Positions 1 through 14,600 of a stretch of 46,289 nucleotides of DNA are shown piece after piece. Every line of letters starts with the position of its first letter. Within the stretch, counting starts at the first letter, position 1. The DNA lies in contig CACFVO010000006.1 of NCBI GenBank assembly GCA_902569785.1, positions 1 to 46,289 on the forward strand, read 5' to 3'. The DNA comes from an uncultured Pelagibacteraceae bacterium. Lineage in GTDB: Bacteria; Pseudomonadota; Alphaproteobacteria; Pelagibacterales; Pelagibacteraceae. Under the pieces are notes generated by a model. The model had not been told where the DNA came from. It did no database searches and worked only from the letters and a program-made list of their open reading frames with translations. Both the position numbers and the translations under genes were made by a program.

Positions 1-513
1 TTGCCCCTTTTCCTTTATACCTTTAGCTTTATAAGGTTCTACAGGTTTTAGATTCTTGATGTCTGCAGATATTTTAGCAACTAAATCTTTGTCTACTCCA
101 TTAATTTTTATTGTTGTTTGTTTTTCAACAGTTATTTTAATATCTTTTGGAATTTTAAAATTTACATCATGACTAAAACCTATTTGTAAGTTTAAGTTTT
201 CTCCTTTTATATTTGCTCTAAATCCTACACCGCTTAACTCTAAAACTTTTTCATGTCCCTTAGAAACACCCGTAATCGCATTATTAATTAAACTTCTATA
301 AGTACCCCACATTATAGTGGTCTTCTTATCAATTTTTTTATTTAAAGGTAGAATTTGAAATTCATTTTTTTCATTGAGTTTTGATGAAAAAATTTTATCA
401 TTAACAGTTAATTTTGTTGATCCTTTAGGGCCAGTAATAGTTAAATTTGCACCTTCTATTTTTACTGAAGACTCTTTTGGTATCAATATATTTTTTTTTC
501 CTATTTTAGACAT
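1..513 (-). CDS. rplF: 50S ribosomal protein L6, C-terminus cut by window edge
   Basis: This gene encodes ribosomal protein L6, which binds 23S rRNA near the GTPase-associated centre of the large subunit. The frame is open from an ATG at 513-511 to base 1, giving 171 codons. The family is usually about 177 residues, so only the last few are missing. The N-terminus (MSKIGKKNILIPK) and the later segment ELSGVGFRANIKGENL are typical of L6. The start codon overlaps the rpsH stop codon by one base (TAATG), which suggests translational coupling. It is the last gene visible in the S10-spc run, and the operon continues beyond the window. Confidence 0.95.
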   Translation of the reverse strand, partial: MSKIGKKNILIPKESSVKIEGANLTITGPKGSTKLTVNDKIFSSKLNEKNEFQILPLNKKIDKKTTIMWGTYRSLINNAITGVSKGHEKVLELSGVGFRANIKGENLNLQIGFSHDVNFKIPKDIKITVEKQTTIKINGVDKDLVAKISADIKNLKPVEPYKAKGIKEKGQ

Positions 514-911
514 TAAAATACTCTGCAAATTATTTCGCCACCAACGTTATTTTTTCTTGCATCAGCATCACTCATTACGCCTTTCGGTGTAGAGAGGATT
601 GCTAATCCTAGTCCGTTCATAACTTTTGGAATGCTTGTTGCTCTTGAATAAACCCTTCTTCCTGGTTTTGATATTCTTTTAATTTCCTTAATAACAGGAT
701 CTCCTTCATAATATTTAAGATTTATTTTTAAGTTAACCTTATTTTTTTCTGATTTTTCGACATAGTAATCTTTTATATAACCTTCATTTTTTAAAATCTT
801 TAAAATATTTTGTCTAAAATTAGATGAAGGTATATCTATAGAATTTAATGATCTCATTTGACCATTTCTAATTCTTGAAAACATATCTCCGATTGGATCT
901 GTTAATGTCAT
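513..911 (-). CDS. rpsH: 30S ribosomal protein S8
   Basis: S8 is a primary binder of the central domain of 16S rRNA. In E. coli it is also the repressor of the spc operon. The 132-residue product is the usual length. It has the N-terminal pattern DPIGDMFSRIRNG and the conserved C-terminus GGEIICRVF. The gene lies 7 bases after rpsN and shares one base with the rplF start. In E. coli the S8 control site lies at the start of rplE. Here rplX and rplE overlap by four bases, so I cannot tell whether that regulation exists. Confidence 0.97.
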   Translation of the reverse strand: MTLTDPIGDMFSRIRNGQMRSLNSIDIPSSNFRQNILKILKNEGYIKDYYVEKSEKNKVNLKINLKYYEGDPVIKEIKRISKPGRRVYSRATSIPKVMNGLGLAILSTPKGVMSDADARKNNVGGEIICRVF

Positions 912-918
912 ATTTCTC

Positions 919-1224
919 CTACCAACTTGATTTAGTTATACCGGGAATTTTGCCTGACGATGCCATATCTCTTAGTGCAATTCTCGATATTCTTAATTTT
1001 CTATAAACTCCATGTGGTCTGCCAGATACTTCACATCGATTTCTCACTCTTATTTTTGCTGAGTTTTTTGGCAACTTATTTAATTTTAATTGTGCAGCAA
1101 ATCTTTCAGATAACTCTAATTTTTTATTTTTTATTATCTTTTTTAATTTAGCTCTTTTATTCGCATATTTTTTTACAAGTTTTATTCTCTTTAAATTTTT
1201 TTGTATAGCGCTTGTTTTAGCCAT
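919..1224 (-). CDS. rpsN: 30S ribosomal protein S14, zinc-independent long form
   Basis: S14 assembles into the head of the small subunit. The 101-residue product is the long form without the CxxC zinc ribbon. It has a single cysteine in [16 protein letters not shown] and ends with the family signature [11 protein letters not shown]. The first 60 residues are very lysine-rich, as in other AT-rich genomes. The gene lies 8 bases after rplE and 7 bases before rpsH in the conserved spc order. No second zinc-type S14 is visible in the window. Confidence 0.97.
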
Positions 1225-1232
1225 TTCTTACC

Positions 1233-1784
1233 TCAATTTTTTTTATTGTTTAATGGAAAATTAAATTCTTTTAGTAGTTCTATCGTTCCTTCTCTACTTT
1301 TGCTTGTGGTTACTATTGTAACATCTAAACCTCTAATTTTATCTACTTTATCAAAATTAACTTCGGGAAATATGATGTGTTCTTTAACTCCAAAAGAATA
1401 GTTGTAAGAACGATCTATTCCTTTAGAAGTTAACCCTCTAAAGTCTTTTACTCTAGGTAAAGCAATATTTACTAGTCTGTCAATAAATTCATACATTTTA
1501 TTAGATCTTAAAGTTACTTTTACTCCTGCATTAGATCCCTTTCTTGTTTTAAAATTAGATATAGATTTTTTAAATTTTGTAATTACAGGTTTTTGTCCAG
1601 CTATTAATGACATATCATCTAGACATGATTTAAGCTTCTTTCCATCAGAGGCATCTTCACCTAAGCCCATATTTAGTATAATTTTATGAATTTTAGGAAC
1701 CTCGTGTTTATTTTTAAGATTGAGTTTACCCATCAAATTACTAATTATTTCTTTCTCATATGCTGTTTTTAATCTTGGTGTCAT
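1233..1784 (-). CDS. rplE: 50S ribosomal protein L5
   Basis: L5 binds 5S rRNA and forms part of the central protuberance. The product is 183 residues, close to the usual 179. Visible family segments are KIHKIILNMGLGED, the GQKPVITKFKKSISNFK loop, and LPRVKDFRGL followed by the IDRSYNYSFGVKEHIIFPE block. The start codon overlaps the rplX stop by four bases (ATGA), so reinitiation coupling is likely. Nothing looks unusual. Confidence 0.97.
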   Translation of the reverse strand: MTPRLKTAYEKEIISNLMGKLNLKNKHEVPKIHKIILNMGLGEDASDGKKLKSCLDDMSLIAGQKPVITKFKKSISNFKTRKGSNAGVKVTLRSNKMYEFIDRLVNIALPRVKDFRGLTSKGIDRSYNYSFGVKEHIIFPEVNFDKVDKIRGLDVTIVTTSKSREGTIELLKEFNFPLNNKKN

Positions 1785-2032
1785 TTTTTACCTGCTATTT
1801 TTTTTTCTTTTTTATTTTGGTCTAAATTTTTTACATTTGATAGATGTATAAAACTTTCTTTTGAAATTATTCCACCTTTATTTTCTTTGGTTGGTTTCAA
1901 ATGCTTTTTAATCATACCTATAGATTTAATCTTAATTTTATTCAGTTTCTTATTTATCTCTAGAATTTCTCCAGTCTTACCTTTGTCTTTGCCAGATATA
2001 ATCTTTACTTGTGTCCCTTTTTTTAAATTCAT
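1781..2032 (-). CDS. rplX: 50S ribosomal protein L24, short form
   Basis: L24 is an early large-subunit assembly protein. The N-terminal KOW motif is clear (GTQVKIISGKDKGKTGEI, about residues 5-22), followed by KHLKPTKENKGGI. At 83 residues it is shorter than the roughly 104 common in proteobacteria. The C-terminus is reduced to a lysine-rich tail, which fits genome streamlining. It starts one base after rplN ends and overlaps rplE by four bases. The rplN, rplX, rplE order is the standard spc arrangement. Confidence 0.95.
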   Translation of the reverse strand: MNLKKGTQVKIISGKDKGKTGEILEINKKLNKIKIKSIGMIKKHLKPTKENKGGIISKESFIHLSNVKNLDQNKKEKKIAGKK

Positions 2033-2033
2033 T

Positions 2034-2402
2034 TTAAAGTACCTCCGGTGCTAGAGAAATAATCTTCGTATGTCCTCGTGTTCTTAATTCACGTGTTACT
2101 GGCCCAAAAATTCTTGTCCCTATTGGTTCACCTTTTTCATCTGTTAATACAACGGCATTTTTATCAAACTGAACTTTAGATCCGTCATCTCTGTAAATTT
2201 CTTTTCTGGTTCTAACTACTACTGCTTTATGAACAGCACCTTTTTTAACTTTTCCTTTAGGTATAGCATCTTTCACACTTATTACTATGAGATCACCGAC
2301 TGAGGCGTATCTTCTTTTTGAACCGCCTAAAACTTTTATACACTCAACTCTTTTAGCTCCCGTATTATCTGCTACCATTAGTTCTGTTTGTACTTGAATC
2401 AT
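2034..2402 (-). CDS. rplN: 50S ribosomal protein L14
   Basis: L14 lies at the subunit interface, forms bridge B8 and contacts L19. I chose the ATG at 2402-2400, giving 122 residues that begin [17 protein letters not shown], the family's invariant N-terminus and length. An in-frame ATG at 2420 would add six residues not found in the family. The chosen start overlaps the rpsQ stop by one base (TAATG), the junction type seen at several places in this operon. The [20 protein letters not shown] segment is conserved. Confidence 0.97.
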
Positions 2403-2629
2403 TATTTCATTACCTGCCAAGTCTTTTTTTTGGAAAATGGTTTACATTCCATAATTGAAACCTTTTCTCCTTCTTTAAATTTGTTGTCTTCATCATGTGC
2501 ATGATATTTTTTGGTTCTTTTTATTATTTTTTCATAAAAAGGATGTTTAAATTTTCTAACGACTTCAACAACAACAGTTTTATTGTTCTTTGCGCTAGTT
2601 ATCACTCCTTTTAAAATTTTTTTTGTCAT
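2402..2629 (-). CDS. rpsQ: 30S ribosomal protein S17
   Basis: S17 is a primary 16S rRNA binder in the 5' domain, with an OB fold. The 75-residue product shows the core pattern [18 protein letters not shown] followed by [23 protein letters not shown]. It is slightly shorter than the usual 80-85 residues. The start overlaps the rpmC stop by four bases and the stop overlaps the rplN start by one base. Confidence 0.96.
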
Positions 2630-2814
2630 TTTGTATTTTTAATAGTTGTATATAATCTTGCTATATTTTTTTTAATTTCATTATATTGAGCTGAATTTTC
2701 TATTTGATTATTTATCTTCTTAAATCTAATATTGAATAAATCTTTTTTCAAAGTAAGTATTTTTTTTTCAGCTTGATCTTTTGTTAATTTATTATCTTCT
2801 TTTTTTTTAGCCAT
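2626..2814 (-). CDS. rpmC: 50S ribosomal protein L29
   Basis: L29 is a small helical protein near the exit of the peptide tunnel, where the signal recognition particle and trigger factor dock. The 62-residue product has the expected length and the loosely conserved [19 protein letters not shown] helix. The sequence is divergent and lysine/asparagine-rich. Position between rplP (4-base gap) and rpsQ (4-base overlap) makes the identity secure. Confidence 0.93.
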
Positions 2815-2818
2815 AAAA

Positions 2819-3223
2819 TTATCTTTTAATAAATTTTGTTTTAATTGGTAATTTTGCAGATGCTTTATAAAGAGCTATCTTTGCTACTTCTTCCGTGACT
2901 CCATCTACCTCAAAGATTATTCTTCCAGGTTTTACCCTGCACGCATAATATTCCGGAGATCCTTTACCTTTACCCATTCTTACTTCTGTTGGTTTTTTTG
3001 AAACTGGAATATTTGGAAATATTCTAGTCCATACTTTTCCAGTTCTTTTCATATATCTAGTTAAAGCAACTCTGGCAGCTTCAATCTGTTTACCAATAAC
3101 TCTTTCGGGTTCCATCGCCTTAAGTCCAAATTGTCCATAGTTCAATTTTACAGCTCTCGAAGCTTTTCCATGAATTCTTCCTTTGAACGCTTTCCTGTAT
3201 TTAGTTCTTACTGGTTGCAGCAT
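2819..3223 (-). CDS. rplP: 50S ribosomal protein L16
   Basis: L16 sits near the A site and helps position aminoacyl-tRNA. The 134-residue product begins [16 protein letters not shown], as the family does. It contains [19 protein letters not shown] and the conserved [18 protein letters not shown] loop. The start lies inside the end of rpsC with a 23-base overlap, the largest overlap in the ribosomal block. Confidence 0.97.
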
Positions 3224-3887
3224 TTTTAACCCTTTCCTTCTTTTCTTTTTCTACATCTTTTGCCATTAGTTCGCCTTTGTAAATCCAAACTTTAACACCA
3301 ATTATTCCATAAGTAGTTAAAGCTTCAGCAAATCCATAATCGATATCAGCTCTCAAGGTGTGAGAAGGTATGCTTCCTTCTCTTAACCATTCTGTTCTAG
3401 CTATTTCATTTCCTGCCAATCTTCCACTTAACATCACTTTTATTCCTTTTGCGTTTAATCTCATTGCTGATTGCATTGCTCTTTTCATGGCCCTTCTGTA
3501 AGCTATTCTTTTAACAAGTTGTTGAGCGATATTTTCTGCTACCAAATTAGAGTTAAGTTCTGGCTTTTTTATTTCTTTTATATTTACACTCACATCGCCG
3601 TCGGTGATTTTCATAATATTTTTTTTAATCTTCTCAATATCGGCACCTTTTTTTCCAATAACAAACCCTGGTCTAGAGGTATGGATTGAAACTTTACATT
3701 TTTTTGATGATCTTTCTATTGTGATTTCAGAAACACCTGAATTAGTTATATTTTTTTTTATATAATTTCTTATTTTGAAATCTTCTATTAAATATTTTCC
3801 AAAATCTTTTTTCTTAGCAAACCATGTTGAGTCCCAACCTCTATTGATTCCTAATCTTAGACCTATTGGATTGATCTTTTGTCCCAT
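3201..3887 (-). CDS. rpsC: 30S ribosomal protein S3
   Basis: S3 lines the mRNA entry channel and contributes to ribosomal helicase activity. The 228-residue product starts [20 protein letters not shown], the family signature. The KH domain is visible at [18 protein letters not shown] (GXXG as GKKG), and the C-terminal domain has [17 protein letters not shown]. The start shares one base with the rplV stop and the 3' end overlaps rplP by 23 bases. Confidence 0.97.
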
Positions 3888-4255
3888 TATTTAGTATCCT
3901 TTTTTTCTTTTTTTTCTTCAAGTATAATTGTAATTCTGCTGAATGGTTTTTTTATTGGACTAGCTCTTCCTTTTGCTCTTGGTCTAAATCGTTTCATTAC
4001 TAGTGATTTACCAACGTATGCTTCCTTAACAAATAAATTATCAATATCGTATTGATGATTGTTTTCTGCATTTGAAATTGCCGATTTAACTGTTTTACTA
4101 ACATCTTTTGCTATTCTTTTTCTGGTAAATTCTAAATCCCTTAAAGCTAAATCAGCTTTTTTTCCTTTAATATAATTTAATACTAAAGCTAGTTTTCTAG
4201 GACTTGATCTTACATTTTTATTTATCGCTTTAACCGTTGAGTTATTTTTTTGCAT
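3887..4255 (-). CDS. rplV: 50S ribosomal protein L22
   Basis: L22 lines the peptide exit tunnel. I chose the ATG at 4255-4253 (122 residues, starting [21 protein letters not shown]). The core matches the family, and AGGAGG at 4266-4261 lies at suitable distance upstream. An earlier in-frame ATG at 4366 would add 37 residues encoded over rpsS in another frame and has no family support. The C-terminal half shows [22 protein letters not shown], then a charged tail. The start lies 14 bases inside the end of rpsS. Confidence 0.96.
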
Positions 4256-4565
4256 CGGCACCTCCTGGTTTAACTGGATCAGATGCAACTGCAGCAGCTT
4301 TTTTGTCTGCTGGAGTGTGTCCTTTAAATGTTCTGGTTGGTGCAAATTCACCAAGTTTATGACCAACCATTTCCTCAGAGATGGTTATAGATATAAATGA
4401 TTTTCCGTTATGAATCATAAAACTATGGCCTACAAAATCAGGGATAATTGTAGAATTTCTTGACCAAGTCTTAATTGGTTTTTTATTTGGTGTATCTTTA
4501 AGTTTATCAATCTTTTTTAATAAACTTGGATGTACAAAAGGCCCTTTCCAAACAGATCTGGTCAT
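4242..4565 (-). CDS. rpsS: 30S ribosomal protein S19 with C-terminal extension
   Basis: S19 forms a complex with S13 in the subunit head. The first 90 or so residues are standard: [18 protein letters not shown], then [14 protein letters not shown] and the [15 protein letters not shown] signature. The product is 107 residues against about 92 in E. coli. The extra Ala/Lys-rich tail contains Pro-Gly-Gly codons whose bases also form the Shine-Dalgarno sequence of rplV. The first base of the gene is also the last base region of the rplB stop (one-base overlap). Confidence 0.97.
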
Positions 4566-5395
4566 TATCTTCTCTTCTTTCTTCTTGTTATAATTAGTTT
4601 GTCACTTCTTTTAGGTCTTCTTGTTTTCAATCCTTTTGCAGATTGACCCCAAGGTGAAACAGGACTTCTTCCACCGGATGTTTTTCCCTCTCCTCCTCCA
4701 TGAGGATGGTCAACTGGGTTCATGGCAACACCTCTTGTTTGTGGTCTTTTTCCTTTCCATCTATTTCTTCCTGCTTTGCCTATCTTAATATTTTTCTGAT
4801 CTGGATTTGAAACAACACCGATTGTAGCTACACAAGCGCTATTAACTTTTCTTGTTTCTCCAGACGATAATTTCAATATTGCATAATCGCCGTCGTACCC
4901 TGATAATGTTATACTAGAGCCTGCTGATCTAGCGAGTTTGCCTCCGTTTCCTGGTATTAGTTCAACATTATGTATTGATGTTCCAGGAGGAATATCTTTT
5001 AACTCAAGAGAATTTCCTATTTTGATTTCAGCGTCTTTACCAGACTCAATTTTATCGCCTTGTTTTAATCCTTGAGGACAGATTATATATGATTTTTCTT
5101 TGTCTTCATAAGTGATTAAAGCTATGTAAGCTGTTCTATTTGGATCGTACTCTATTCTGTCAACTGTTGCAGAAATATTTTTCTTTTTTCTAAAAAAATC
5201 GATAATTCTAAATTTGTGTTTAGAACCACCACCTATATGTCGAGATGTTATACGACCATAATTATTTCTTCCACCAGTAAAATTTTGACCTCGAGTTAAT
5301 GGTTTGTACGGAGAACCTTTCCATAAAGCACTTTTATTTACAACTACTGTGCCTCTAGTTGATTTCGTGTAAGGTTTAAAAGTTTTTAATGCCAT
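4565..5395 (-). CDS. rplB: 50S ribosomal protein L2
   Basis: L2 is required for subunit association and peptidyl transferase activity. The 276-residue product shows the expected segments: the [22 protein letters not shown] region, the SH3-like middle domain, and [19 protein letters not shown] near the C-terminus with the conserved histidine. Length matches the family (about 273-278). It lies 2 bases after rplW. Confidence 0.98.
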
Positions 5396-5397
5396 AT

Positions 5398-5691
5398 TTA
5401 AATTCCAGTTGTCAGATCAATACTTTGACCTTTTTTTAAAGTTACAATAGCTTTCTTATAACCAGTTTTGAAAGATTTTTTTCCTTGTTTTATTTTGAAT
5501 TTTGCTTTTCTATTAATGATATTTACTTTAATGACACTAACTTTAAATAATTTCTCAATATTTTTTTTAATAGTTTTTTTATTTGCTTTATTATGAACCT
5601 TAAAAACTGTTTTATTTTGTTCAGATAAAATAGTAGCCTTTTCAGTTATAATCGGATTTCTAATTGAGTCTATGTGATTAATTTTTTTCAT
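5398..5691 (-). CDS. rplW: 50S ribosomal protein L23
   Basis: L23 is at the tunnel exit and is the main docking site for trigger factor and the signal recognition particle. The 97-residue product has the N-terminal RNPIITEKATILSEQNKTVF pattern and the VSVIKVNIINRKAKFK strand region. It is lysine/isoleucine-rich but of normal length. The start lies 14 bases inside the end of rplD. Confidence 0.95.
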   Translation of the reverse strand: MKKINHIDSIRNPIITEKATILSEQNKTVFKVHNKANKKTIKKNIEKLFKVSVIKVNIINRKAKFKIKQGKKSFKTGYKKAIVTLKKGQSIDLTTGI

Positions 5692-6313
5692 TTAGAATCC
5701 TGTCTTGTAATTTTTTAACTGAAGAAGAAGTCATTATGACGTTTTTATATTTAAATAAATCATAAATATTAGTGCCTTCTTGTTTTATTAATTTTATATT
5801 TTTAATATTTCTTGCAGATTTATTAATGTTCTTTAAAGAGTCTTCGTCTGAAATAATTAATGCGTTAGATAAATTATTTTTAATCAAAAATTTATTAAAT
5901 TCTTTAGTTTTTTTAATTTCTTTTTTAACGTCTGCTAAAATATGTAAATTTTTGTCTGAATTTTTTTTAGATAATGTTTGAGCTAATGCTAATTTTCTTA
6001 CCTTTTTATTAATCTTTTTTACTTTATAAACCTTACCTTTTGGTCCGTGAGCAACACCACCTCCAACAAATAAAGGAGCTTTTCTACTTGCATGACGTGC
6101 ACCTCCGCTCCCCTTTTGTGCAACAATTTTGACTGTTGATCCTTTAATTTCATTTCTTTGTTTTGTTTTAGCGGTTCTTGGCTTTGAATGATTTAACTGC
6201 CAATCAATCACGAATTTTATTAATTTATGATTTATTTTTAATTTTACTATCTTATCTGACACTTCAATTGATGTAGATTTTGTTCCGTCAATATTTAATA
6301 AAGGAAATTTCAT
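5678..6313 (-). CDS. rplD: 50S ribosomal protein L4
   Basis: L4 has a globular domain and a long loop reaching the exit tunnel. The 211-residue product carries the conserved loop segment with QKGSGGARHASRKAPLFVGG and a later GPKGKVYKVKKINKKVRKLA. In E. coli, L4 represses the S10 operon through a leader before rpsJ. That leader has no room here because rpsJ follows fusA by two bases, so that mechanism is probably absent. The gene overlaps rplW by 14 bases and follows rplC by 2. Confidence 0.96.
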   Translation of the reverse strand: MKFPLLNIDGTKSTSIEVSDKIVKLKINHKLIKFVIDWQLNHSKPRTAKTKQRNEIKGSTVKIVAQKGSGGARHASRKAPLFVGGGVAHGPKGKVYKVKKINKKVRKLALAQTLSKKNSDKNLHILADVKKEIKKTKEFNKFLIKNNLSNALIISDEDSLKNINKSARNIKNIKLIKQEGTNIYDLFKYKNVIMTSSSVKKLQDRILNEKN

Positions 6314-6315
6314 TT

Positions 6316-7020
6316 TTATTTTTTACCTTTTTTTGCTTCTGCCTTTTTAATTTTAGCTTCGTGTTTTTCAACAACAGTTTTTCTAGAAATGTTTTTTACT
6401 GATTCTCTTAAATAAACTGTGGTATTTTTTGATCCGGGTATTGATCCTCTTAAATAAATCAAATCATTATCTAAATCTGATTTTATAATTTCCAAGTTTA
6501 GCATTGTTCTTACTTTATCTCCCATATGACCAGCCATTTTTTTTCCTTTGAAGACCTTACCAGGATCTTGATTCTGACCTGTTGAACCATGAGCTCTATG
6601 AGAAACAGAAACCCCATGTGAAGCTCTTAAACCTGAAAAATTCCACCTTTTCATACCGCCTGCAAAACCTTTCCCTATAGTTTTTGATCTAACATCTAAA
6701 AATTTTTTATCTTTAAATATTTCTAATCCAAATTCATTCCCCTCTTTAAATTGATCATTATTTCCAATTCTAAATTCTTTTAATATTTTTTTTGGTTCAG
6801 TTTTTTTCTTAGTAAAATAACCCTTCATTTGTTTTGTAAGTTTTGAATTCTTAATTTTGCCAAATCCAACTTTAATTGCGTTGTAACCTCTTTTATCTTT
6901 GGTGATAACATCTAAAACTCTACCTTTTTCTATCTTAATTACTGTTACAGGAACGGATTGTCCGCTCTTCATAAACTCTCGAGTCATTCCTAATTTTGTA
7001 CCTAATAATCCTATGCTCAT
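6316..7020 (-). CDS. rplC: 50S ribosomal protein L3 with lysine-rich tail
   Basis: L3 is a primary 23S rRNA assembly protein near the peptidyl transferase centre. The product begins MSIGLLGTKLGMTREF. It contains the loop segment HGSTGQNQDPGKVFKGKKMA with the glutamine that is methylated in E. coli L3. At 234 residues it is about 25 longer than E. coli L3, and the excess is a charged C-terminal tail of Lys/Ala/Glu. It lies 3 bases after rpsJ. Confidence 0.97.
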   Translation of the reverse strand: MSIGLLGTKLGMTREFMKSGQSVPVTVIKIEKGRVLDVITKDKRGYNAIKVGFGKIKNSKLTKQMKGYFTKKKTEPKKILKEFRIGNNDQFKEGNEFGLEIFKDKKFLDVRSKTIGKGFAGGMKRWNFSGLRASHGVSVSHRAHGSTGQNQDPGKVFKGKKMAGHMGDKVRTMLNLEIIKSDLDNDLIYLRGSIPGSKNTTVYLRESVKNISRKTVVEKHEAKIKKAEAKKGKK

Positions 7021-7023
7021 TTT

Positions 7024-7332
7024 TTATATCTTTATTTCTATATCTACTCCTGAAGCTAAATCTAATTTCATCAAAGCTTCAACTGTTTGAGGAGTTGGTT
7101 CAATTATATCTATTAATCTTTTATGAGTTCTCGATTCAAATTGTTCTCTACTTTTTTTATCAATGTGAGGAGATCTTAAAACTGTGTATCTTTCTATTCT
7201 TGTTGGTAATGGTATAGGTCCTTTTACTTGTGCTCCTGTCCTTTTAGCTGTATTGACAATTTCCTCCGTAGAAAGATCGAGGATCTTATTGTCGTATGCT
7301 TTTAAATGTATTCTAATATTTTGATTTTCCAT
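7024..7332 (-). CDS. rpsJ: 30S ribosomal protein S10 (NusE)
   Basis: S10 works in the small-subunit head and also in transcription antitermination as NusE, linking NusG and the ribosome. The 102-residue product matches the family: [19 protein letters not shown], the [19 protein letters not shown] loop, and [10 protein letters not shown] at the end. The ATG begins two bases after the fusA stop, so it has no promoter or leader of its own. In many bacteria a tuf gene or an S10 leader lies here. Confidence 0.98.
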
Positions 7333-7334
7333 AA

Positions 7335-9410
7335 TTAAGCTAATTTTTTAGTAACTTCATCTTGAACATTTTGAGGAACTTTATCATAATGACTGAATTG
7401 CATTGTGTACTGAGCTCTTCCTTGAGTGGATGATCTTAAATTGTTAATATATCCAAACATATTTGCCAAAGGAACAGTTGCATTTATAACTGTAGCATTG
7501 CCTCTAGCCTCAGTTGATGCTACTTGGCCTCTTCTGCTATTTAAATCTCCAATAACATCTCCCATAAAGTCCTCTGGTGTTACGACTTCTACTTTCATCA
7601 TTGGTTCAAGGAGTTTTAAAGTTGCTTTAGTACATGCCTCTCTAAAACACATTCTTGAAGCTATCTCAAATGCCAGTACGCTTGAGTCAACATCATGGTG
7701 TAAACCATCTAAAATTGTAACCTTATAATCTATGACAGGAAATCCTGCAAGAATTCCACTATCGGCTACACTTATAACTCCTTTTTCTACGCCTGGTATA
7801 AATTCTTTTGGTATTGCTCCACCTTTAATCTTGTTATCTACCTCTCTACCCTTACCTGGTTCTAAAGGTTCTACATTTAAAGTTACTTTAGCAAATTGTC
7901 CTGAACCACCGCTTTGCTTTTTATGAATATAAGTAACCTCAGATGATCCAAGTATAGTTTCTCTATAAGCAACTTGTGGTGCACCGATATTGGCTTCTAC
8001 TTTAAATTCTCTCTTCATCCTGTCGACAATGATATCTAGATGTAGTTCACCCATACCTTTGATAATTGTTTGTCCCGACTCCTCATCAGAGCTTACTCTA
8101 AATGATGGATCTTCTTTAGCTAATCTGCTTAAAGCTTCACCCATTTTTTCTTGGTCAGCTTTTGTTTTAGGTTCAACTGCGATTTCGATTACTGGATCTG
8201 GGAATTCCATTGGTTCTAATAGAATAGGTATTTTCTCATCACATAAAGTATGGCCTGTAATTGTGTGTTTTAAACCAGCAAGAGCCACAATATCCCCAGT
8301 AGTTGCTTCTTTTATATCTTCTCTACTATTTGCGTGCATTAAAAGCATTCTCCCTACTCTTTCTGATTTTTCTTTTGATGAATTATAAACTGATGTTCCG
8401 GCTTGTAATTTTCCTGAGTAAATTCTTATAAATGTTAATGAACCGACAAATGGGTCATTAGCTACTTTAAAGGCTAAAGCAGAAAAAGGTTCGTTATCAG
8501 CAAACTTCATTTGAACTTTTTCTTCTGAACCTAATTTAGTTCCTTCAATTGAACCAAGATCTTTTGGACTAGGAAGATAATCAATTACTGCATCTAATAA
8601 CGGCTGAACACCCTTATTTTTAAAAGCGGAACCTGTCGTTATAGGTACAAAATTAAAACCTAAGGTTCCTTTTCTTATACATTTAATTAAATCAGATTCA
8701 GATGGTTCTTTCCCATCCAAATAAGACTCCATTAATTTTTCATCTTGTTCAACAGCTGTTTCAACCAAGTCTTTCCTGTATTGATCTGCTTTTTCTTTTA
8801 AATCAGCTGGGATTTCAACATAATCAAATTTTGCTCCTAAATCTTCATTTTGCCAAACAACACCTTTCATTTTAACTAAATCAACTACGCCTTTAAGATC
8901 AGCTTCTGAGCCGATTGGTAATTGTAAAACTAATGGTTTACAGCCTAATCTATCTTTAATCATTTCTACGCATCTATAAAAATCAGCGCCTGTTCTATCA
9001 AGTTTATTAACAAAACAAATTCTAGGTACCTTATATTTATCTGCTTGACGCCAAACAGTTTCTGACTGAGGTTCTACCCCAGCTACCCCGTCAAAAACAG
9101 CAACAGCTCCATCTAATACTTTTAATGATCTTTCAACTTCAATAGTAAAATCTACGTGTCCGGGTGTATCGATAATATTAATTCTATGATCTCTCCAAAA
9201 ACATGTTGTAGCAGCAGAAGTAATTGTAATACCTCTTTCTTGTTCCTGCTCCATCCAATCCATAGTTGCTGCACCATCATGAACTTCACCTATTTTATGA
9301 CTTTTTCCAGTGTAGTATAAAACTCTTTCGGTAGTTGTTGTTTTACCCGCATCTATATGTGCCATGATTCCAATGTTTCTATATTTATCTAATGAATATT
9401 TAGTAGCCAT
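7335..9410 (-). CDS. fusA: Translation elongation factor G
   Basis: EF-G is the GTPase that drives translocation on the ribosome. The 691-residue product is full length. GTPase motifs are visible: G1 [19 protein letters not shown], the G2 region [11 protein letters not shown]3 DTPGHVDF and G4 NKLDR. Domain IV carries the [16 protein letters not shown] segment. The gene lies 6 bases after rpsG and 2 bases before rpsJ. No adjacent tuf copy is present, and only one fusA is visible. Confidence 0.98.
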
Positions 9411-9416
9411 AATATT

Positions 9417-9887
9417 TTACCATCTAAAATGTGCAAAAGCTTTATTGGCTTCTGCCATTTTATGTGTGTCTTCTCTTTTTTTAATTGCTGATCCTTTGTT
9501 TTGTGACGCATCTAAGATTTCTGAATATAATTTATCCGCCATTGTTTTATTTTTTCTTTTTCTTGTAGCATCCATTAACCATCTTAATGCTAAAGCTTGC
9601 GCTCTTTTTGATTTAACTTCAACTGGAACTTGATAGGTCGCACCTCCAACTCGTCTAGATCTACATTCTAAATTAGGTTTCACGTTGCTTATTGCAGTGT
9701 TAAAAATTTTTAGAGGATCTTCATTGTTTTTTGACTTAATTTTTTCTAAAGCATCATATAAAATCTTTTCAGCAGTAGATCTTTTTCCATCATACATAAT
9801 AGAATTAATAAATTTAGAAACTATTTCTGAGTGAAATTTAGGATCTGGATAAACTTTTCTAACAGGTGCTTTTCTTTTTCGTGACAT
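9417..9887 (-). CDS. rpsG: 30S ribosomal protein S7
   Basis: S7 starts assembly of the 16S rRNA head domain and lies at the mRNA exit. The 156-residue product has [18 protein letters not shown], then [20 protein letters not shown] and a C-terminal [15 protein letters not shown]. In E. coli, S7 represses its own operon by binding the rpsL-rpsG spacer. Here that spacer is only 4 bases, so any autoregulation would have to use another site, such as the leader before rpsL. Confidence 0.98.
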
Positions 9888-9891
9888 AATA

Positions 9892-10263
9892 TTATTTTGG
9901 TTTTTTTGCTCCGTACAAAGATCTTCTTTGTTTACGATTTGCTACACCTTGGGTATCTAAATTACCTCTTAAGATATGATATCTAACGCCGGGCAAATCT
10001 TTAACTCTGCCTCCTCTTAATAAAACTACTGAGTGTTCTTGTAAATTATGTCCTTCGCCTGGGATATAAGCTGTAACTTCAAAACCATTTGATAATCTAA
10101 CTCTTGCAACTTTTCTTAATGCTGAATTGGGTTTTTTGGGTGTTGTTGTATAAACTTTTACACAAACACCTCGTTTAAGAGGTTGTCGCTCTAAAGCTGG
10201 TACTTTATTCCGAGCTATCGGTTTAACTCTACTTTTTTTAATCAACTGATTAATTGTTGGCAT
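9892..10263 (-). CDS. rpsL: 30S ribosomal protein S12
   Basis: S12 lies at the decoding centre and controls fidelity. The 123-residue product begins [15 protein letters not shown]. It contains [20 protein letters not shown] and [19 protein letters not shown], the two loops where E. coli streptomycin-resistance changes occur (Lys-43 and Lys-88). Both lysines are present, so the allele looks wild type. The Asp after the second lysine is the methylthiolated position in E. coli. It is the first gene after a 152-base gap holding a promoter and hairpins. I see no good Shine-Dalgarno sequence. Confidence 0.98.
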
Positions 10264-10279
10264 AGTAATATTTTGAAGC

Positions 10280-10357
10280 AGAAGTGAGGAAAGCCTGATC
10301 GTGTTTTTCGTTAGTGTTTAAGGCTATAAAATGCCTTACTTCTAACATTCAAAATGT
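10280..10357 (-). promoter_or_regulatory. Structured 5' leader of rpsL (candidate ribosomal-protein autoregulatory RNA)
   Basis: The predicted rpsL leader can fold into two hairpins. The first is a 5-bp stem with a 3-base loop (10357-10353 with 10349-10345). The second has an outer stem pairing AGAAGTAAGG (10343-10334) with CCTCACTTCT (10289-10280), 9 of 10 pairs, and an inner 5-bp stem (10325-10321 with 10296-10292). It ends 16 bases before the start codon. No run of T follows, so it is not an obvious terminator. A regulatory role is inference. Confidence 0.45.
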
Positions 10358-10362
10358 GCCGT

Positions 10363-10390
10363 AAACTAGCATCGAAATAATAAAAGTCAA
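10363..10390 (-). promoter_or_regulatory. Sigma-70-like promoter for rpsL and the str-S10-spc block
   Basis: On the minus strand, TTGACT (10390-10385) and TAGTTT (10368-10363) are separated by 16 bases. TGC directly before the -10 hexamer gives an extended -10 element. Transcription would start near 10356, leaving a leader of about 93 bases before rpsL. It lies in the only sizeable gap within the minus-strand block. Confidence 0.6.
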
Positions 10391-10415
10391 TGTTTATTAG
10401 GTATTCTATTATTAT

Positions 10416-13400
10416 TTAAGTTGTTTGTTCTGGCGCTGATGTGGCTTTTAATGCTTGTTTTTGTAATTCCTCTAATCTTGTTTTATCTTGTTCTCTGGCT
10501 TTTTTATCCCAATCGATCTTGGTTAAACCTGTTCCAGCTGGTACTAGTCTACCTACAATAACATTTTCTTTCAAACCTTCTAATGTATCAATTTTACCTC
10601 TAATAGAAGCATCAGTTAAAACTCGGGTAGTTTCTTGGAAAGAAGCCGCAGATATAAATGAATTTGTTTGTAAGGAAGCTTTTGTTATACCAAGTAAAAC
10701 CCTTTCAAATATAGCTGGTTTCTTTTTATTTTTTCTTAATTCTTCATTAATTTTAGTCATTTCAAGTAAATCTATTACTTCCCCAGTTAATAAATCTGAG
10801 TCACATGGATCTTTAATTTCAACTCTTTTTAACATTTGTCTAACAATAGTTTCTATGTGCTTATCATTAATTACGACGCCTTGAAGTCTATAAACCTCTT
10901 GAACTTCAGTAACAAAATACTCTGTTAGTTTCTCAACACCCAATACTCTTAAGATATCATGTGGTAGAGGAGCTCCATCTAATAAATATTCACCTTTTTT
11001 TATTTTTTCTCCCTGGTTAAAATTAACATGTTTTCCTTTTGGAATTAAATAGTTAGAAGTTTCACCATTTGTAGCAATAATAGAAATTTTTTGTTTACCT
11101 CTTACTTCTTTACCAAATTCTATCACCCCATCATTTTCTGCTATAATTGCACTATCTTTTGGTTTTCTTGCCTCAAATAATTCTGCAACTCTTGGTAAAC
11201 CTCCGGTAATATCTTTTGTCTTAGATGTTTCTTTAGGAAGTCTAGCCAATACATCGCCAGCTGAAATTTTTTGTCCATCCTTTACAGACAAAATTGTGTC
11301 TGGGACTAAATAATATCTTGCTTCATTTCCATCTGCTTTTTTAATAATTTCACCTTTGTCATCTCTTAGAGTAATACGTGGTTTCAATTCAGAATTTTTA
11401 GATAATGATTTCCAATCAGTTACTGACTTAGATGATAAACCTGTGGCATCATCTAAAGTTTCTGTTAATGAGCTTCCCTCAGCTAAATCCATATAATTTA
11501 CAATACCACTGGTTTCTGCAATTACAGGTAAGGTATAAGGATCCCATTCAGCTATTTTTTTTCCTTTTTCAATCATATCTCCGTCTTTAAAAAATATTTT
11601 TGAACCATAATTAACTTTGTATATTGCTAATTGTCGTCCACTCTCATCTTCTATACTCAATTGAGTATTTCGACCCATAACAATTATATTTTTCTTTGAG
11701 TCTTCAATAAGATTCTTGTTTATTATATTTAATTTACCTTTTGTTTGAGAAACTATTTGTGACTCCTCTTTAATTTGTGCTGTACCACCCACGTGGAATG
11801 TTCTCATTGTTAACTGTGTTCCTGGTTCTCCTATTGACTGAGCTGCGATCATTCCTACAGCTTCTCCAATATTTACCAACTTTCCTCTGGCTAAATCTCG
11901 ACCATAACAAACTTGACAAACGCCTTTAGTAGAAGCACAAGTGATTACAGAATATACATTTACCGATTTTACTCCAGCAGCATCAATTTTTTCGCAATCG
12001 AATTCATCAATTAATTTCCCTTTTTTAATAATAACTTCTCCTGTTACTGGATTTTTAATATCCTCAGCTATTACCCTGCCAAGAACTCTTTCGGATAAAC
12101 TTACTAAAATATTTCCGCCCTCTATTATCTCAGAAATAGTTACTGAAGATCTTTTCTTAGGATCGCATTCCGCTTTGGTAACTTGAACATCCTGGGCAAC
12201 ATCACAAAGTCTTCTTGTAAGATAGCCTGAGTTAGCAGTTTTTAAAGCGGTATCAGCTAATCCTTTTCTTGCTCCATGTGTTGAATTAAAATACTCCAAG
12301 ACGGACAACCCTTCTTTAAAATTTGAAATAATAGGAGTTTCAATAATTTCTCCAGATGGTTTTGCTATTAGACCTCTCATGCCAGCCAATTGTTTCATTT
12401 GTGCTTGAGATCCTCTCGCACCTGAATCAGCCATCATGTAAACTGAATTTGTCTCTATTCTATCATCATCATAAACCTTCTCGGCAGAGGAAATTTCTTT
12501 CATCATTTCATTTGCTACTGTGTCTGTGCATTTAGACCATACATCCACTACTTTATTATATTTCTCGCCTCTGGTAATTAAACCATCCGAATATTGTTTT
12601 TCATACTCCTCTATTTGTTTCTTTGTATTGTTTATTAAACCTTCTTTGGTTTTGGGTATTAATAAATCATCCTTACCAAATGAAATACCTGCTTTAAATG
12701 CATGTTTAAAACCGAGTGTTTTGATTTTATCACAAAAAATAACTGTTTCTTTTTGCCCACAGTATCTGAAAATTATATCTATCACTTCAGATACATTTTT
12801 CTTAGTCAATAGTCTATTTACTAAACTAAATTTAATATTTTTATTTTTAGGTAATACATTCGCTAATAAAAATCTTCCAGCTGTGCTAGTATACTTTTCA
12901 GTTTTACTTGATCCGTCTTCATTAGTTGTTTTAAAAGTTGATATTATTTTTGAATGTAAACTAATTGATTTACTTTCTAATGCTTGCTCAATTTCTTCAA
13001 CATTAGAAAAAATACCTTTTGGTTTTTTATCATTTTCATTACCTTGTGATAGATAATAAATTCCTAAAACTATATCCTGACTCGGGACTATAATGGGTTT
13101 GCCGTTTGAGGGGCTTAGAATATTATTTGTTGACATCATTAAAACTCTAGCTTCTAATTGAGCCTCTAAACTTAAAGGTATATGAACGGCCATTTGGTCT
13201 CCGTCAAAATCAGCATTAAATGCTGCGCAAACGAGTGGGTGTAGCTCAATAGCATTACCTTCGATAAGTTTTGCCTCGAATGCCTGAACACCCAGTCTAT
13301 GCAACGTTGGTGCTCGATTCAAAAGAATAGGATGTTCTCTAATTATATGTTCCAAAGAGTCCCATACTTCACTTTTTTCTTTTTCAACTAGTCTTTTTGC

Positions 13401-14600
13401 CTGTTTGATTGTGGTTGCTAATCCTAGTTTATCTAACCTTGCATAAAGAAAAGGTTTAAATAATTCTAGAGCCATTTTTTTTGGTAAACCACATTGATGT
13501 AACTTTAGTTCTGGCCCAACGACAATTACTGACCTACCTGAATAGTCAACCCTTTTTCCTAACAAGTTTTGTCTAAATCTTCCTTGTTTTCCTTTAAGCA
13601 TTTCAGCTAGTGATTTAAGAGGTCTTTTACCAGTTCCAGTAATTACTCTACCTCTTCTACCATTATCAAATAATGCATCTACTGATTCTTGAAGCATCCT
13701 TTTTTCATTTCGAACAATAATATCAGGTGCTTTAAGATCTAATAATCTTTTTAAACGATTATTTCTATTAATAACTCTTCTATATAAATCATTAAGATCT
13801 GATGTGGCAAATCTACCTCCATCTAAAGGAACTAAAGGTCTTAGCTCAGGTGGTATCACTGGAACAGAAGTGAGTATCATCCATTCAGGCTTATTTCCTG
13901 ATGTTATAAAGGACTCAATTAATTTTAATCTTTTAATTGTTCTTTCTTCAGTTACTTTAGATTTAATAGTAGAAAGTGAATTTCTTAGTTTTTCTTGTTC
14001 TTTTTTCAAATCTAAATTAATTAATATTTCTCTAACGGCTTCTGCACCTATTCCAGCACTGAAGGCATCTTCTCCAAATTCATCTTGCGCTTTAGTTAAA
14101 GCTTCTTCGGATAGTAGCTGACCTTTCTTCAATGTAGTTAAGCCTGGCTCTACTACTATGAAACTTTCAAAATATAAAACTTTTTCTACTTCCTTCAGTT
14201 TCATGTCTATTGCTAAAGATATTCTACTTGGTAAAGATTTTAGGAACCATATATGAGCCACGGGACAAGCGAGATCTATGTGCCCCATTCTTTCTCTTCT
14301 AACGTTTGACTTAGTTACTTCTACACCACACTTTTCACAAATTATCCCTCTAAATTTCATACGTTTGTATTTTCCACACAAACATTCATAATCTTTTACA
14401 GGACCAAATATTCTTGAGCAAAATAATCCATCTTTTTCAGGTCTAAAAGTCCTATAATTAATAGTTTCAGGTTTTTTTATTTCACCGTAAGACCAAGATT
14501 TTATTTTTTCAGGACTTGCTAGAGTTATCTTAATACTATCAAAATTATTTTCTGGAACTAAATTTTGATTATCAAAGTTTTTTGTTAGATTTTTTTCCAT
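10416..14600 (-). CDS. rpoC: RNA polymerase beta-prime subunit
   Basis: Beta-prime carries the catalytic magnesium site and the DNA clamp of RNA polymerase. The 1394-residue product shows the N-terminal zinc ribbon (Cys 73, 75, 88 and 91), the rudder/lid region, and the active-site motif [12 protein letters not shown] with its three aspartates. A second zinc site lies around [16 protein letters not shown], and [18 protein letters not shown] marks the trigger-loop region. It starts one base after rpoB ends, as expected for a coupled rpoBC pair. Length is normal for alphaproteobacteria. Confidence 0.99.

Follow-up and report, generated by a model that had tools for sequence, protein, structure and literature searches.

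The window, that is, the whole stretch of 46,289 nucleotides analysed here, comes from an uncultured Pelagibacteraceae bacterium and belongs to a draft assembly (G000; 857 kb, 75.6% complete), in which the str, S10 and spc genes form a putative joined operon on the minus strand. This locus raises the question of where such a joined operon is controlled, and by which ribosomal protein. A preliminary description had argued that the E. coli control sites for S7, L4 and L10 have no room here, and the spacer lengths that it gave are all correct (rpsL-rpsG 4 bases, fusA-rpsJ 2 bases, the L10 gene and the gene upstream of it 2 bases); Pfam supports S7, S10, EF-G and L10 at the genes flanking those spacers, and L24 in the window is without Pfam confirmation at 1e-10. 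At 7333-7334, rpsJ follows fusA after the 2 bases without tuf between them, unlike in the E. coli str operon. The rpoC-rpsL gap had been called the only sizeable one of the gene block; it does measure 152 bases (10264-10415, minus-strand genes), but there are also 60 bases between rpoB and the next gene. The leader in this gap had been regarded as the natural place for feedback control, and the comparisons below argue for the same reading. The features referred to in the text are as follows.

513-911, minus strand: rpsH (S8), gene of the proposed repressor
9892-10263, minus strand: rpsL (S12), promoter-proximal gene of the joined operon
10385-10390, minus strand: -35 element TTGACT
10363-10368, minus strand: -10 element TAGTTT, with TGC ahead of it at 10371-10369
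10356-10362, minus strand: GC-rich discriminator ACGGCAC, high in G + C across leader groups
10348-10355, minus strand: 5' strand of the possible closing helix P1, AUUUUGAA (weakly supported)
10342-10346, minus strand: outer helix PA, 5' strand GUUAG (covariation)
10339-10341, minus strand: internal loop, 5' side AAG, the last G at the presumed place of 16S G597
10333-10338, minus strand: inner helix P2, 5' strand UAAGGC, the first U at the presumed place of U598 (covariation)
10319-10324, minus strand: inner helix P2, 3' strand GCCUUA, the last A at the presumed place of A640 (covariation)
10315-10318, minus strand: internal loop, 3' side AACA, at the presumed places of 641, A642 (10317), C643 (10316) and 644
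10310-10314, minus strand: outer helix PA, 3' strand CUAAC (covariation)
10270-10277, minus strand: 3' strand of the possible closing helix P1, UUCAAAAU, 6 bases upstream of the rpsL ATG

The promoter was compared over 159 SAR11 rpsL leaders (82 of the 107 genomes of the window's genus with rpsL, 53 of 53 other genomes of family f1, 22 of 42 of family f2 and two named records), which represent at most 158 genomes since two of them (L118 and L165) are both from HIMB114. The reported TTGACT (10390-10385), 16 bases and TGC-TAGTTT (10371-10363) are all in place, and the -35 and -10 elements are conserved: TTGAC is present in 159 of 159 leaders, TAnnnT follows it after exactly 16 bases in 153, and the remaining six, from genera g4 and g7, have TATTAA at the place of the -10 element. 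The 7 bases past the -10 element have group mean G + C contents of 0.57-0.66 versus 0.33 in the 560 bases upstream of rpsL. A consensus promoter scan of positions 9000-12000 gave 12 sites versus 11.8 in shuffled sequences and did not list the rpsL promoter; the case for the promoter therefore rests on conservation, by which it is real. Transcription would be expected to start at about 10357-10355.

Downstream of the promoter, the conserved element is the hairpin at 10346-10310 on the minus strand. Its common core, present in 159 of 159 leaders and missing from two non-SAR11 control leaders, consists of PA, 3-5 bases ending in G, P2 opening with U, AAC and 1-2 further bases, and PA starts 12-16 bases past the -10 element throughout this set. 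Most of the window's genus has GUUAG/CUAAC as PA; g8 has GUUAA/UUAAC, g4, g6 and g7 have GGUAG/CUACC, and f2 has AGUAG/CUACU or AGAAG/CUUCU; in most Pelagibacter PA is GGUUG/CUGCC with a U-U mismatch. When changes were redistributed over a tree built from flanking coding DNA, with the register fitted per clade for PA and not for P2, the combined p for PA and P2 over the 159 leaders was 1.4e-11, while slid partners gave 0.05-0.60. In addition, a MAFFT alignment of 36 genus-like sequences contained 10 cells changed on both sides versus 3.5 in shuffles. In an R-scape-like test of 406 column pairs, PA2, PA1 and P2-3 ranked at the top with E of 0.1 each, which alone is not significant. Alignment of many SAR11 leaders with a covariance test, the check proposed in the preliminary description, thus bears out a conserved structured RNA in this leader, and the helices that covary are PA and P2. 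The possible closing helix P1 lies in the same place in most leaders of the genus and beats shuffles (p ≤ 0.05) in 7/82; a local hairpin AAAUAAC/GUUAUUU in Pelagibacter was rejected (p 0.74).

The place of this RNA was already known. The available text of Meyer et al. 2009 (PMC2704228) describes an rpsL motif, at the rpoC-rpsL junction, from Ca. P. ubique and from marine metagenomes, leaves its ligand unassigned, calls it unlike the S7, S8 or L4 motifs and reports some covariation in P1 and P3. This motif is Rfam family RF01823, which is spelt rspL and typed 'Gene; sRNA' though it is a leader, and which extends at its 5' end over the -10 element and the discriminator. The first eight positions of the family are probably promoter DNA (-10 plus discriminator), because PA starts 12-16 bases past the -10. 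The site in the window likewise lies 3' of rpoC and 5' of rpsL, in the same order as the described motif, and P2 and the conserved AAC of RF01823 (in J2-3) are present in the window leader as P2 and AAC of the core. The Rfam search that had been suggested thus leads to a described place, but the window itself remains below the cut-off of the family: the match is full length, in the right place and on the right strand, with 21.1 bits versus a curated cut-off of 37, and across the window the family has no match at gathering threshold. Over the complete genome the top RF01823 match lies elsewhere (20.5 bits); the leader is therefore not identified by its Rfam score alone. For seven Pelagibacter leaders the scores are 78.6-96.1 bits, and outside Pelagibacter the model reaches its cut-off in 0 of 21 genomes. 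The revised core differs from RF01823 in that P3 is replaced by the outer helix PA, in its wider range and in having a proposed ligand.

This ligand is suggested by the internal loop. In the 16S numbering of helix 21 (597, 598 and 640-644) that we assume here, G, U, A, A and C of the leader occupy the places of G597, U598, A640, A642 and C643, and these equivalents, with U598-A640 as a pair, lie in an asymmetric loop between two helices in all 159 SAR11 leaders. No SAR11 leader was excluded; therefore the constancy of G-U...A-N-A-C there is not a product of selection, whereas outside SAR11 its invariance was partly built in by the choice of sites. Helix 21 of 16S rRNA is the S8 site (PMC10931766; PMC4176348), and the available text of the latter names A642 as the only conserved base-specific contact of S8. 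The leader in the window's genus and its own 16S rRNA share the loop AAG/AAC, the latter reading AAG/AACU; among ten 16S genes, nine have AAG with AACU and one has UAG with AACU. A descriptor of the core matches helix 21 in 7/7 16S genes of family f1, including that of the window's own genome, and misses it in both f2 16S genes and in the one other alphaproteobacterial 16S gene tested, because of mismatches in the lower helix, although by eye the loop bases are present there. On the minus strand of 1-14600 the descriptor finds no site besides the leader. At the place of the base triple A595-(A596-U644), the window's genus has A opposite A, so the triple is not obvious, and other alphaproteobacteria have a pyrimidine opposite a purine (C-G 18, U-G 24, U-A 9, C-A 1; Fisher p 0.07).

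The preliminary description had considered a lineage-specific RNA, and this did not hold, since the core is also found in many other alphaproteobacterial rpsL leaders. A covariance model trained on the window's genus and g8 (R1) finds the leaders of g7, g4 and g6 in place and gives nothing better than E 6.8 in 78 non-SAR11 loci. A second model (R2) matches 71 of 147 genomes of the order at E ≤ 1, the f2 matches lying on contigs other than that of rpsL, and over the class it matches SAR11 only (2/289 genomes); a match of about 23.5 bits recurs away from rpsL in several f2 genomes, for example at G013:C1:432021-432068. The strict descriptor was found before rpsL in three of 46 non-SAR11 alphaproteobacteria, in 0/1118 background windows from those loci and in 0/29 other bacteria. 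With 86 more genomes, taken non-randomly from the 273 of the class that have rpsL (by best score, roughly one from each family; one of them, L346, gave no leader), a wider consensus PA-GYNG-U...A-RACR-PA was obtained. This occurs in 22/131 leaders at a background p ≤ 0.01 and in 42/131 at 0.05, and in 0/29 and 2/29 other bacteria, respectively.

A third model (R3), built from 12 non-SAR11 cores and two f2 cores, recovered 24/75 loci at E ≤ 0.01 and 38/75 at E ≤ 1 in a held-out alphaproteobacterial set, 5/45 at E ≤ 0.01 in a held-out named set (45 or 46 loci, called alphaproteobacterial from their record titles; those of L059 and L087 give no class) and 0/32 non-alphaproteobacterial loci at E ≤ 0.01. 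The 58 sites examined (eight from the named-set search, 38 from the 75-locus search and the 12 non-SAR11 training cores) are all on the sense strand, 53-305 bases before rpsL; two of the ten matches of the named-set search (E 4.3 and 6.5) lay outside leaders and were excluded from them. By eye, most of the 58 have a TAGTAT-like -10 and a GC-rich stretch just upstream. The alignment of R3 itself contains 33 two-sided cells versus 11.2 in shuffles, and because its sites were chosen for pairing, a test with sites chosen by sequence only was run as well, in which at least five of the six PA pairs form in 56/131 leaders and in 15/518 shifted controls. Neither R2 nor R3 picks up helix 21, and R3 misses the leaders of the window's genus (g1) and of Pelagibacter; what ties these, putatively, to the class-wide core is their position, the bases they share with it and the f2 and g4-g7 forms. 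By these tests, about half of the alphaproteobacterial leaders in the sample are without the core, and 20 of these loci, core-bearing and core-less, contain no Rfam family at cut-off. Three Rhizobiales rpsL leaders (L046, L047 and L055) have a variant GAUG-UGAGGC...GCCUCA-AACA with a long hairpin loop, which R3 does not match.

The element is also linked in position to the S8 gene. In the window rpsH lies downstream of rpsL on the same strand, and among 33 genomes searched it does so at 9.0-11.3 kb in 17 of the 17 with both genes on one contig, the genes being on different contigs in the other 16. Moreover, R3 was run blind on 299 genomes of the phylum and gave four matches, all in the class; the search bears on this class only. 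Three of the four are before rpsL, and one of these three (G296) was already in the 75-locus search. In G747 the core lies 224 bases before rpsJ (S10) and rplC. Among 20 further genomes (17 without a core at rpsL, G498 with a weak site, G391 with no leader read and G267 with rpsL not examined), 14 showed rpsJ, and in one of them, G310, the core lies 256 bases upstream of that gene, preceded by an EF-Tu-like reading frame and TTGACA; the rpsL leader of this genome has no R3 match. Twelve control genomes with the core at rpsL have none at rpsJ (seen in ten), the only R3 match elsewhere being one of 12.6 bits. These two cases, few as they are, indicate that the element can accompany S10-spc when str has a leader of its own. 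Its position before rpsJ argues against S12 or S7 as the ligand.

S8 thus probably binds the leader hairpin and represses the joined str-S10-spc operon by which it is encoded. The promoter with its GC-rich discriminator would start the transcript, and the first 45 or so bases would fold into the hairpin with an asymmetric internal loop, which would be a copy of the S8-binding site in 16S helix 21. S8 in excess over 16S rRNA would then bind the hairpin and lower the expression of str-S10-spc, in SAR11 perhaps with the leader held closed beside the rpsL start and perhaps through early termination of transcription in those leaders that have a terminator-like hairpin past the core. On balance we also favour, with somewhat less assurance, the view that an S8 leader heading str-S10-spc is the ancestral alphaproteobacterial control, of which the SAR11 rpsL motif would be the AU-rich descendant and which would follow S10-spc when the leaders separate.

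Terminators as the general mechanism were rejected: a strict scan finds them in only three of 52 core-bearing alphaproteobacterial leaders (versus one), and a looser scan finds such hairpins in 20 of 44 core-negative leaders too (versus five). After the core, the looser scan gives terminator-like hairpins in 16/52 leaders versus two on the reverse strand. A U-run follows the core in 15/22 f2 leaders versus 3/137 f1 leaders. Both genomes that carry the core at rpsJ have, downstream of it, a strong terminator-like hairpin and its U-run (L360, 1440-1660, and L375, 2100-2353; -21.5 and -27.3 kcal/mol, respectively), which suggests attenuation there.

Other readings of the leader have to be weighed against S8 feedback. 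That the hairpin senses another ribosomal protein of the S10-spc part, for example S17 or L4, is unlikely: a second 16S place near position 263, presumably helix 11 in the S17 region, does fit the descriptor in four of ten genes (L248, L357, L358 and L359), but these are 4/7 from f1 and 0/3 others, whereas helix 21 is matched in 7/7 from f1, and 23S genes have no site in 4/4. E. coli L4 does control the S10 leader (PMC2704228), but the leader bases match the S8 determinants given in PMC4176348. It is improbable that the Rfam structure is correct as drawn, a three-way junction with inner P1 and P3 and an unassigned ligand. Besides the P1 and P3 covariation of Meyer et al., P3 has p 0.026 in 46 Pelagibacter leaders, in which the alignment of divergent rows is doubtful; in the same leaders, however, P2 has p 4e-5 and inner P1 has p 1.0 on its single testable pair, so that inner P1 was rejected as unsupported by covariation. 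In addition, PA competes with P3 and holds with paired changes across the order, and the failure of the model to reach its cut-off outside Pelagibacter also speaks against it.

The preliminary description had proposed a long-range stem, 10343-10334/10289-10280, whose compensatory changes would support it. As the conserved element this stem failed, although the structured leader itself stood: over the 82 leaders of the genus, 8.68 of its 10 pairs form versus 7.94 in shuffled regions, a mild excess, and of the seven leaders in which the 5' GAAGU is changed, none forms all five pairs. The partners that covary are local (AAGG-CCUU and GUUAG-CUAAC). The complete leader of the window contains the stem in its minimum-energy fold, slightly favouring it (-21.4 versus -19.1 kcal/mol for the core), and the stem could compete with the core; the nascent 60-base RNA, however, folds to the core (-12.4 kcal/mol). 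That the stem is the working structure, whether by itself or in a switch with the core, is therefore very improbable. The fold of the leader is only modestly better than those of shuffles (z -1.93; 6/200 fold equally well). Finally, a conserved promoter followed by a functionless hairpin can hardly be credited: the promoter is indeed strongly conserved, but the core lies downstream of the -10 element and changes in pairs.

The proposed S8 leader may be compared with known systems. Like the S8 operator of the E. coli spc operon at the start of rplE, it would be an mRNA copy of 16S helix 21 (PMC10931766; PMC4176348) in an operon that contains the S8 gene, but the SAR11 core heads the joined operon, the element standing before rpsL or rpsJ; in the window, rplX overlaps rplE. 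Control of the E. coli str operon by S7 concerns the same rpsL-rpsG genes, but its site is in the rpsL-rpsG spacer, which has only 4 bases in the window, and the alphaproteobacterial core is before rpsJ in two genomes. The rpsL attenuators of Naville and Gautheret 2010 (Listeria, Xanthomonas, Pseudomonas and Rickettsia) are also leaders before rpsL, and the terminator-like hairpins in part of the alphaproteobacterial leaders recall them, but theirs have no common sequence or structure according to the available text (PMC2965389). Rickettsia rpsL leaders were reported earlier (PMC2965389; PMC4683814), Table 1 of Eckert and Weinberg 2020 (PMC7247131) lists no S12, S7 or S8 leader, and a 2024 review remarks, in the part available, that phylogenetic studies of spc mRNA autoregulation have not advanced (PMC10931766). 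A literature search, with most subscription papers outside it, gave no S8 leader at rpsL, so that an earlier description is possible, and among alphaproteobacterial rpsL leaders it gave only those of Meyer et al. and of Rickettsia. Consequently, the place of the RNA is known, its structure would be revised and its range widened, and a specific ligand is proposed; the core before rpsL in many other alphaproteobacteria seems to be new here, as do its position ahead of rpsJ in two genomes and the match of its bases to the S8 site. A ligand is thus proposed for an RNA to which none was assigned in 2009 and which occurs in some of the ocean's most abundant bacteria, and many alphaproteobacteria would share a ribosomal-protein leader where an earlier rpsL survey reported no common feature (PMC2965389). 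If the S8 reading is true, one S8 site governs a whole superoperon in a streamlined genome.

Position 641 of 16S rRNA is U in E. coli and A in SAR11, and the alphaproteobacterial leaders have A or G at its equivalent. S8 has a highly conserved Ser-Thr-Ser (PMC4176348), in place of which the S8 encoded in the window (513-911) reads LSTPKG, and this change and A641 of SAR11 16S rRNA may go together.
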